The notes under the pieces were generated by a model. The model was not told where the DNA came from and did no database searches. It saw only the letters and a list, made by a program, of their open reading frames with translations. Both the position numbers and the translations under genes were made by a program. Source: Amycolatopsis granulosa (GTDB taxonomy: Bacteria; Actinomycetota; Actinomycetes; Mycobacteriales; Pseudonocardiaceae). Taken from it: 64,000 nucleotides of DNA. Shown here in pieces: positions 54,125 to 56,538 of the stretch (positions are counted from its first letter, which is position 1; every line of letters begins with the position of its first letter). The stretch spans positions 806,001-870,000 of the forward strand of contig NZ_JAANOV010000001.1 of the NCBI RefSeq assembly GCF_011758745.1, given 5' to 3'.

Positions 54125-54895
54125 TCACCTCGGCTGCCGGCGCGTGAGGACCTCCCGCGTGGCCGCGTCGGCCGGGTAGAAGGACTCGATCACCAGCTCG
54201 GCCAGCGTCACGTCCAGCGCCGTGCCGAACGTCGCGACCATCGACATCAGGGTCAGCACGCCGTCACCGTGGCGGAGCCGCACCGGCACGAACACCGACC
54301 CGGCCGGCGCCTCGTCCACCGGGTCGTCGCACGGATAGCCGCTGACCTCGGTCAGCAACGCGGCCAGGTCCGCGTCGCCGGTGATCTCCACCTGCCGCCG
54401 CAGCCGGCCGAGCAGCTCGGCTCGCCACTGGCCGAGGTTGAGCACGTGCGGCGCGAGGCCACGCGGGTGGAGGGCGGCCCGCAGCACGTTCGCGGGGGGC
54501 TCCAGCAGGTCCGGGTCCACGAGGTCGGTGAGCAGCGTGATCCCGCTGTTGGACTCGACGAGGTCCCAGCCGCGGTCGAGCACCAGCGCCGGGTACGGCT
54601 CGTGCCCGGCGAGAAGGTGCCGGACCGCCTCCAGCGCCACACCCAGGTCGGGCAGCGGGGTCTGTGGGTAGACCGGGGCGTAGCCGGCGGCGAGCAGCAG
54701 CCGGTTGCGTTCCCGCAGCGGCACCTCCAGCCGTTCGCCCAACCGCAGCACCATCTCGCGACTGGGCCGGGACCGCCCGTTCTCCAGGAAGCTCAGGTGG
54801 CGGGTGGAGATCTCGGCGGACAGGGCGAGGTCGAGCTGGCTGAGCCGGCGGCGTTCCCGCCACTGCCGCAACTGCTCACCCACCGGGCGCTGCAT
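54125..54895 (-). CDS. XRE-family regulator with MmyB-like ligand domain
   Basis: 256 residues. The Cro/CI helix-turn-helix (GEQLRQWRERRRLSQLDLA, STRHLSFLENGRSRPSREMV) is followed by a C-terminal region beginning LLLAAGYAPVYPQTPL, typical of MmyB-like regulators that bind fatty-acid-like ligands. ATG 54895 is used; GTG 54904 is an alternative start. It diverges from the SnoaL-like gene at 55020, which it may control. Confidence 0.85.
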   Translation of the reverse strand: MQRPVGEQLRQWRERRRLSQLDLALSAEISTRHLSFLENGRSRPSREMVLRLGERLEVPLRERNRLLLAAGYAPVYPQTPLPDLGVALEAVRHLLAGHEPYPALVLDRGWDLVESNSGITLLTDLVDPDLLEPPANVLRAALHPRGLAPHVLNLGQWRAELLGRLRRQVEITGDADLAALLTEVSGYPCDDPVDEAPAGSVFVPVRLRHGDGVLTLMSMVATFGTALDVTLAELVIESFYPADAATREVLTRRQPR

Positions 54896-55019
54896 GGTCG
54901 TCACCCCGTCGAAACTACGGGGCCCGCCGGCGGAGCCGCCATTACCTCCGGCGTAATCGACGGGCCGCGCGATCCGGGAGATCGTGATCTGGTCACACCG
55001 ACCCGATCAGGAGGATCCG

Positions 55020-55394: not shown

Positions 55395-55419
55395 GGCCCG
55401 GACCCCCCAGGTCCGGGCC
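55395..55419. terminator. Ten-base-pair hairpin between SnoaL gene and riboswitch
   Basis: GGCCCGGACC and GGTCCGGGCC form a perfect ten-bp stem with a five-base loop. It lies 12 bases after the SnoaL stop and directly after the last aptamer on the minus strand, so it may terminate both transcripts. No T-tract. Confidence 0.65.
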
Positions 55420-55420
55420 C

Positions 55421-55631
55421 TCCCCACTCTGTCGTGCCCCGTGGGCGCCTGAGAGGTTCACCCGAGTGTTGAGCCGGGTTTGCACCGTCGGCGGGGCGGG
55501 ACGGAGTTGTGCCCGTCGGCCCGCTTTCCAGAGGCGTCTCGTCCGCGCGGTCCGGGGTGCCTGAGAGGTTCCGGGGAGGACTTGCTCCTTCGGCGCCGGG
55601 CACGATGGTGGTGGCCCGGTCTCTCCCGCGC
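55421..55631 (-). ncRNA. Tandem glycine riboswitch (gcvT type)
   Basis: On the minus strand the first aptamer has GGGAGAGACC, GCGCCGAAGGAGCAAG, CCTCTCAGGCACC and GACGCCTCTGGAAAGC (about 55521-55631). The second has CCGACGGTGCAAACC, CCTCTCAGGCGCC and GACAGAGTGGGGAGG (about 55421-55510), joined by a short linker. These are the conserved blocks of the two-aptamer glycine riboswitch. In mycobacteria gcvP follows the neighbouring MerR gene. Here no minus-strand gene follows: a hairpin and the convergent SnoaL gene lie next, so the target is missing. Confidence 0.9.
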
Positions 55632-55680
55632 GGCTTCAGCGACTGCGCTCCGTACCCTACTCCCCGGTTCGGCGGATCGA

Positions 55681-56247
55681 TCAGCCGGTCCGGCGGGCGT
55701 TGCGGCGCTGGGCGAGTTCGTCCGGGGCGACCGGCTCCACCTCGCCGCCATCGGCGCGTTCGGCGGGAAACTCGTGCAGGGTCCCGCTGATTTCCTGCAT
55801 GGGGACCTTCACCGCGATGCCGAAGACGCCCTGCCCGCCCTGGAGCAGATCCACGATCTCCTCCGGCGAGGTGCACTCGTAGACGGTGGTGCCGTCGGAG
55901 ACCAGGGTGACCTTCGCCAGGTCGCGCGCCCCGCGCTTGCGCAGGTGCTCGACGGCCACGCGGATGTTCTGCAGCGAGACGCCCGTGTCGAGTAAACGCT
56001 TGACGATCTTGAGGGCGAGGATGTCCTTGAACGAGTACAGCCGCTGCGATCCCGATCCGTGGGCCGTGCGGATGCTCGGCGCGACCAGCCCGGTGCGCGC
56101 CCAGTAGTCCAGTTGGCGGTAGGTGATGCCGGCGATCTGACAGGCCGCGGGGCCCCGGTATCCGACCAGCTCGTCAGGCAGTGACGAGTCCGGGAAGAGC
56201 TCACCCTGCTCTCCCGGCACGACCTGAACCGGCCTTTCGTCGACCAC
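55681..56247 (-). CDS. MerR-family regulator (Rv1830-like)
   Basis: 188 residues. GYRGPAACQIAGITYRQLDYWARTGLV and SGSQRLYSFKDILALKIVKRLLDTGVSL are the MerR-type helix-turn-helix and arm (given here as regions of about 29-90). The C-terminal part is short and acidic. GTG 56247 is fixed by GGGGAGG five bases upstream. Orthologues sit between the bifunctional nuclease gene and gcvP in mycobacteria. Its ligand and targets are not known to me. Confidence 0.9.
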   Translation of the reverse strand: MVDERPVQVVPGEQGELFPDSSLPDELVGYRGPAACQIAGITYRQLDYWARTGLVAPSIRTAHGSGSQRLYSFKDILALKIVKRLLDTGVSLQNIRVAVEHLRKRGARDLAKVTLVSDGTTVYECTSPEEIVDLLQGGQGVFGIAVKVPMQEISGTLHEFPAERADGGEVEPVAPDELAQRRNARRTG

Positions 56248-56538
56248 GCATGCCTCCCCTCGCCCGGCCGGTGCGGCCGGTCGAAACAAGCACCCGGGGC
56301 CCTGGACGTAGGACCCGCGGCAGTGGCAAACCGCGGATGTGCCCCAGTGACCGCGCCGCGGCCGAATCACACCGAAGCGATTTACCGCCATCGACGGTAT
56401 GCGCGGGCAGGCCCCCGGTCAACGCGACGCGCGGCCCGCCCTGCAGCCTGTCCGGGGAGTTGACCGGTCAAGGCGCCCGACCAGCGTTACCCGGACGGGT
56501 AATTTTCCTCGCCGGGCCGCGGGGACCGCGCCGGAACG
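56248..56538. other. Upstream region of the MerR gene
   Basis: About 290 bases with no convincing gene on either strand. It should contain the promoter of the MerR gene on the minus strand; a more A/T-rich patch lies near 56368-56400. No RNA family was recognised. Confidence 0.4.

Follow-up and report, generated by a model that had tools for sequence, protein, structure and literature searches.

Tandem glycine riboswitches of the Rfam family RF00504 are known from gcv operons, in which they precede a same-strand gene to control. Aptamers lacking a fitting gene were noted in the 2007 survey by Barrick and Breaker, the available part of which names action in trans or recent pseudo-regulatory sequences as explanations and describes one antisense SAM-I case (PMC2258182). 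In that case, from Clostridium acetobutylicum, the riboswitch is convergent with a gene, and the antisense target lies in the ligand's own pathway (same source, same part). For Listeria, the accessible sections of a further article describe SreA, a SAM riboswitch RNA that acts in trans, and AspocR and Rli55, in which a B12 riboswitch lies ahead of a non-coding output (PMC8079631). The trans function of riboswitch-derived small RNAs in Sinorhizobium is called putative in the accessible text of PMC9373788.

We analyzed a stretch of 64,000 nucleotides from Amycolatopsis granulosa (hereafter, the window), which carries a tandem glycine riboswitch on its minus strand with no recognized same-strand gene close behind it. 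This orphan shares both aptamers, the leader, the linker, the -10 box and the ancestral locus with the RF00504 switches of gcv operons, but it has no same-strand gene to control, its hairpin is stronger and its ribosome site is gone. A terminated riboswitch RNA with possible distant action would make it similar to SreA; however, SreA still has a cis operon and a known target according to the accessible sections of PMC8079631, whereas the orphan has no cis gene. Riboswitch-led non-coding output would likewise relate it to AspocR and Rli55, although there the riboswitch governs a longer RNA past the terminator (PMC8079631, accessible sections), and the alignment contains no shared element past the hairpin except, in the rows that have it, the SnoaL-like gene. 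Glycine riboswitch orphans kept across a genus are not described in the accessible portions of PMC2258182, PMC8079631, PMC9373788, PMC6944388, PMC12452182 and PMC9481103, and among the matches listed, the open-licence PMC literature contained no report of an orphan glycine riboswitch in Amycolatopsis.

Identity and parts of the orphan riboswitch

On the minus strand of the window, a MerR-family gene is followed after about 46 nt by aptamer 1, aptamer 2, a hairpin and the stop codon of a convergent gene. The features are as follows (gene names other than Pfam matches are our reading of the translations):

55681..56256, minus strand: MerR-family gene (Pfam MerR_1), directly upstream of the RNA
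55654..55659, minus strand: -10 element TAGGGT, presumed to belong to a promoter of the RNA's own (TANNNT, -31/-32 relative to GGGAGAG)
55634..55643, minus strand: leader GTCGCTGAAG, nearly invariant in 19 genus members
55538..55638, minus strand: glycine aptamer 1 (RF00504, 59.8 bits, E = 7e-10; cut-off 32)
55419..55541, minus strand: glycine aptamer 2 (RF00504, 42.6 bits in the whole-genome search; cut-off 32)
55395..55419, minus strand: terminator-like hairpin, 11 bp, 25 nt, -23.1 kcal/mol, with no U run in this genome
55020..55382, plus strand: convergent SnoaL-like gene (Pfam SnoaL_2), with 12 nt between its stop codon and the hairpin
54125..54904, minus strand: XRE regulator with an MmyB-like ligand domain (Pfam HTH_3, MLTR_LBD), on the strand of the RNA, about 0.5 kb further on

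The sequence-only reading had proposed a tandem glycine riboswitch, and the covariance search with RF00504 placed the sequence and structure of both aptamers in the family, above the curated cut-off (59.8 and 42.6 versus 32 bits). The second score came from the whole-genome search; cmscan of the whole window reported aptamer 1 alone, and when 801 bases were scanned with laxer cmscan settings, the region of aptamer 2 matched just a related family, at 12 bits. That reading had also found no gene after the switch, and indeed the next recognized same-strand gene, encoding the XRE regulator, lies about 0.5 kb on, with the hairpin and the convergent SnoaL-like gene between. The observation of a tandem glycine riboswitch without a downstream gene was thus confirmed. 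We also considered whether this RNA reads into a same-strand gene at another place in the assembly, and rejected this because the genome is a single contig (5.62 Mb, 99.6% complete) and XRE is the next recognized gene.

We compared the locus across 19 genomes of the window's genus, an Amycolatopsis subgroup that includes A. tucumanensis, A. thermalba, A. deserti, A. taiwanensis and A. acididurans. A riboswitch directly followed MerR in every one; aptamer 1 was detected in 19 and aptamer 2 exceeded the cut-off in 14, its assignment in the other five being based on motif and alignment. Within the genus, 555 of 570 helix cells were paired in aptamer 1 and 603 of 627 in aptamer 2, the tail of aptamer 2 (GACAGAGTGGGGAGG, 55419-55433) was invariant (19/19), and the inter-aptamer linker was nearly invariant. 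We take GTCGCTGAAG to be the part of the leader that pairs with this linker in tandem glycine riboswitches (leader-linker/K-turn). Orphan switches were also found in 12 species outside the genus, and the motifs of both aptamers were kept in all 31 orphans. The aptamer 1 core of A. rhizosphaerae, known from a low-coverage assembly, reads CTCACAGG in place of CTCTCAGG.

A TANNNT box was found 31 or 32 nt upstream of GGGAGAG in all 79 riboswitches of the locus that were examined, including 31/31 orphans, against a chance level of 2.5% of random 30-nt windows. This bears on the idea that the element is the 3' end of the garA-ftsR-BFN-MerR unit, co-transcribed with MerR, with the 3' end or stability of that transcript set by glycine. 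Proximity agrees with such an arrangement, since the distance from the end of MerR to aptamer 1 is about 46 nt in the window and does not exceed about 210 nt among the 19 genus members. However, a -10 box kept before aptamer 1 in every orphan would be unexpected of it, and most Lentzea rows have about 1 kb between MerR and a switch that leads to gcvP; we therefore consider this explanation very unlikely. Minimum free energy folding alone gave no signal (z = +0.77), and a generic promoter and terminator scan flagged neither the -10 box nor the hairpin. The case for the riboswitch unit is made by the covariance models and the comparative data.

Loss of gcvP from the locus and the surviving copy

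A MerR homologue was present in all 70 family genomes searched. With a single genome taken per genus, gcvP was found 3' of MerR, within the stretch covered, in 39 of the family's 46 genera. In 38 of these 39, the covariance model detected a riboswitch between MerR and gcvP. The exception, G020, still has gcvP right after MerR, and RF00504 had no match anywhere in the genomes of G020 or G065 (family genus g3). Of the seven genera without gcvP at the locus, two still have the riboswitch (the window's genus and A. arida) and five do not. No gcvP was found in the flanks of the locus in any of the 19 genus genomes (1.7 to about 7 kb downstream searched). In A. regifaucium and similar species, the order is MerR, riboswitch, gcvP, SnoaL and XRE; thus, loss of gcvP alone gives the layout of the window. 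According to the sequence-only reading, the corresponding gene block of mycobacteria also leads into gcvP.

A quick tree of 96 rows, built from five neighboring proteins and leaving many forks open, contained 31 orphans, 15 rows that had lost both gcvP and the riboswitch, 49 linked rows (including L144 and L160, which hold a riboswitch and were counted as linked) and one row at a contig edge. The orphans comprised the window's genus with A. suaedae (fork support 81), A. marina with A. palatopharyngis, A. arida, and a rubida-jejuensis-saalfeldensis group of eight species nested among linked species. The orphan label required three changes on this tree, two of them forced by starred branches, and because gcvP1 (the gcvP of the locus), once lost, would probably not be regained at the same site, we read the orphan state as having at least two origins. 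The 15 rows lacking both elements consisted of 14 from the Prauserella/Saccharomonospora group and A. antarctica; retention of the switch is therefore not automatic, as a related group lost the gene and the switch together.

The window genome contains three tandem glycine riboswitches, located at 0.86 Mb (the orphan), 1.63 Mb and 4.64 Mb. Its only full-length gcvP is the 4.64 Mb copy, which has its own tandem riboswitch before gcvP-gcvT, and the third riboswitch (1626294-1626478; 10295-10479 of L010, minus strand) lies 5' of gcvH2-glyA-sdaA. The sequence-only reading had stated that gcvP is gone and the switch remains, and had suggested looking elsewhere in the genome for gcvP and a second glycine riboswitch; both were found, at a distance from the orphan. 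Its account of a switch that stayed behind is borne out by the 39 of 46 genera that still have gcvP at the locus. More than four aptamer matches were observed in only three of the 19 genus genomes (G000, G016 and G018). G000 (5.62 Mb) and G018 (5.7 Mb), which are sisters in the tree, are the smallest genomes of the genus, the others measuring 6.8-9.5 Mb.

A single full-length GDC-P, located away from MerR, was present in all 37 genomes tested (including 18 congeners) and in the window genome, and a glycine aptamer lies just 5' of the surviving gcvP in 19/19 genus genomes. When the GcvP of the window genome was compared with 13 locus-type GcvPs, identity was 68-71% for 12 of them and 64% for that of L162. 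For A. regifaucium and A. anabasis, the locus GcvP is in each case 79-88% identical to ten others, but 76-78% to L155 and 70-71% to L162; because locus-type proteins themselves fall to 70-71%, identity alone is no proof of a separate origin. The 57 GcvPs placed in a tree included 23 non-locus proteins, which formed one clade with full support and of which five came from the window's genus (5 of its 19 members were included); this tree was rooted at its midpoint for drawing only, two long branches were flagged, and second copies of linked species were left out. The suggestion that gcvP had moved recently did not survive these comparisons: a recent transposition was rejected, as the orphan state is common to 19/19 congeners and the surviving GcvP belongs to a clade apart from the locus GcvPs. 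Among linked genomes tested, two gcvP copies were found in 9/9 of Amycolatopsis or Prauserella and one in the single Lentzea. We infer that a second gcvP (gcvP2) was gained before these genera diverged, with several later losses of the locus copy. In A. sp. 2-2 (L069), gcvP1 is split over two frames beside an intact riboswitch, which may capture the loss in progress or reflect a sequencing error.

Constraint on the orphans and the 3' hairpin

We measured constraint as the divergence of the switch relative to that of 4-fold degenerate sites. For the window's genus the ratio was 0.357 (19 rows, 171 pairs), and for the rubida group it was 0.285 (8 rows, 28 pairs), versus 0.363, 0.312, 0.384 and 0.448 in four linked sets (11, 13, 6 and 16 rows; the third set overlaps with the first two); divergence at 4-fold sites reached 0.46, and sites near 0.45 may approach saturation. 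Within the genus, 141 of 198 gap-free columns of the switch were invariant, compared with 82 of 379 at 4-fold sites. The 47 linked rows used have 108 invariant columns, at which the orphans differed in 27 of 3348 cells, 18 of these being one G-to-A change at a paired position, and the linked rows, in a leave-one-out comparison, deviated in 10 of 5086. The rate is slightly higher in orphans (0.8% versus 0.2%) but far below that expected of free drift. Orphans are about as constrained as gcvP-linked switches, with little or no loss of constraint.

These values are difficult to reconcile with a relic, that is, a decaying, functionless leader left by the loss of gcvP1. An explanation of this kind was named by Barrick and Breaker in the available part of their survey (PMC2258182), and the split gcvP1 beside an intact switch in A. 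sp. 2-2 implies that recently orphaned switches should exist. However, a level of constraint near that of linked switches, maintained over 4-fold divergence of up to 0.46, so few core deviations and a covarying hairpin all disfavor a relic, which we regard as highly improbable.

The hairpin 3' of aptamer 2 was at or below -15 kcal/mol in 31/31 orphans versus 26/47 linked riboswitches, and the medians were -21.8 and -16.5 kcal/mol, respectively (Mann-Whitney test, P = 5e-10, for rows that are not independent). Five of 11 stem pairs changed on both sides within the genus, with a covariation score matched by 0/500 shuffles; the count of pairs changed on both sides was matched by 2/500 and that of further pair types by 98/500. 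The outermost pair was open in 11 of 19 members. At least four T within 10 nt after the hairpin were found in just 3/31 orphans, the window genome not among them, which makes termination uncertain. A ribosome site with a start codon within 130 nt was found in 1/31 orphans versus 42/47 linked switches; a hidden leader ORF, for which start signals only were searched, was rejected on this count. With respect to a discrete terminated RNA of the SreA type, the -10 box and the hairpin were kept in 31/31 orphans, and U runs were few. The -10 box and the tail of the orphans were inherited from the gcvP-linked state.

Downstream neighbors and the mode of action

As for a cis leader of the RF00504 type, a same-strand gene close behind the switch was found in 4/31 orphans and not in the window (L097 is unclassified). 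In A. marina and A. palatopharyngis (L040, L041), SnoaL is gone and a same-strand XRE gene starts about 75 nt past the switch; in A. pithecellobii and A. rhizosphaerae (L019, L020), a same-strand gene read from its translation as an aldo-keto reductase follows the orphan, in A. pithecellobii with a hairpin and a T run between them. These four genes could be captured cis targets, and it is possible that the A. pithecellobii reductase is newly captured. In G011, an opposite-strand gene follows the orphan. Since the unit persists beside differing neighbors, selection most likely acts on the RNA itself.

The sequence-only reading had raised antisense transcription into SnoaL and XRE. The XRE part is excluded, because XRE shares the strand of the RNA. 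For SnoaL, the geometry stands, whereas a general role does not: the gene is convergent in 25/31 orphans (16/19 in the genus, A. suaedae and 8/8 of the rubida group), and the switch persists in the six others, which have no SnoaL there. A glycine-controlled antisense RNA would require that glycine decides read-through past the hairpin into SnoaL, for which the C. acetobutylicum SAM-I riboswitch (PMC2258182) and AspocR of Listeria (PMC8079631) provide precedents in the available parts of both sources, and the 12-nt distance to the SnoaL stop codon in the window would suit it. However, SnoaL lies 3' of gcvP in 14 linked rows, so gcvP loss makes SnoaL the neighbor automatically, and inspection by eye found no clear competing antiterminator. 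We consider antisense control of this kind unlikely. To our knowledge, SnoaL-like proteins have no link to glycine.

The stand-alone glycine-sensing RNA, which the sequence-only reading had listed among its options, is the best supported by constraint, the -10 box and the conserved hairpin, although the scarcity of U runs leaves its termination uncertain. A -10 box, both sensors and a hairpin kept across the genus suggest that the RNA probably works free-standing, and our best reading of the orphan is a promoter-driven, probably terminated, stand-alone glycine-sensing RNA. We thus think it likely that the riboswitch of gcvP1 was kept after gcvP1 loss and is now a stand-alone RNA gene. The RNA would be transcribed from its own promoter, marked by the -10 box, and would end at the hairpin with a length of about 250 nt. 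It is predicted from the kept core columns (27/3348 orphan cells deviating) to bind glycine, which would change the segments of the RNA that are exposed, and it may act in trans on an mRNA, another riboswitch leader or a protein.

What the tests of constraint and conservation favor is use of the RNA, not trans action. Trans action would be the likeliest mode for the orphan, with antisense control of the convergent SnoaL as its main rival. Duplex energies compared with shuffles, in a calculation that ignores internal pairing and uses approximate start sites, gave no consistent outlier for gcvP2 in five genomes or for seven other start regions in one genome. Only one of the five genomes had a gcvP2 duplex about two standard deviations below shuffles, and the gcvH2 duplex was -130.6 versus -117.9 for shuffles (SD 6.0) in one genome. 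The CCUCCCC of aptamer 1 could possibly pair with the GGGGAGG tail. More broadly, and tentatively, since we would give it somewhat less than an even chance, a free-standing glycine-gated RNA gene may have arisen at least twice in Amycolatopsis upon loss of gcvP1 in favor of gcvP2; its targets in trans would be glycine and one-carbon genes, possibly reached by way of the homologous gcvP2 and glyA leaders.

These findings caution that assigning a riboswitch target by the next gene can mislead. Repeated loss of gcvP1 constitutes a natural experiment on the question of the survey, recent orphans or trans action, and this question is directly testable in culturable soil actinomycetes. In the window's genus, the switch has persisted without its gene for at least as long as the genus has existed, while a related group shows that its loss is possible.
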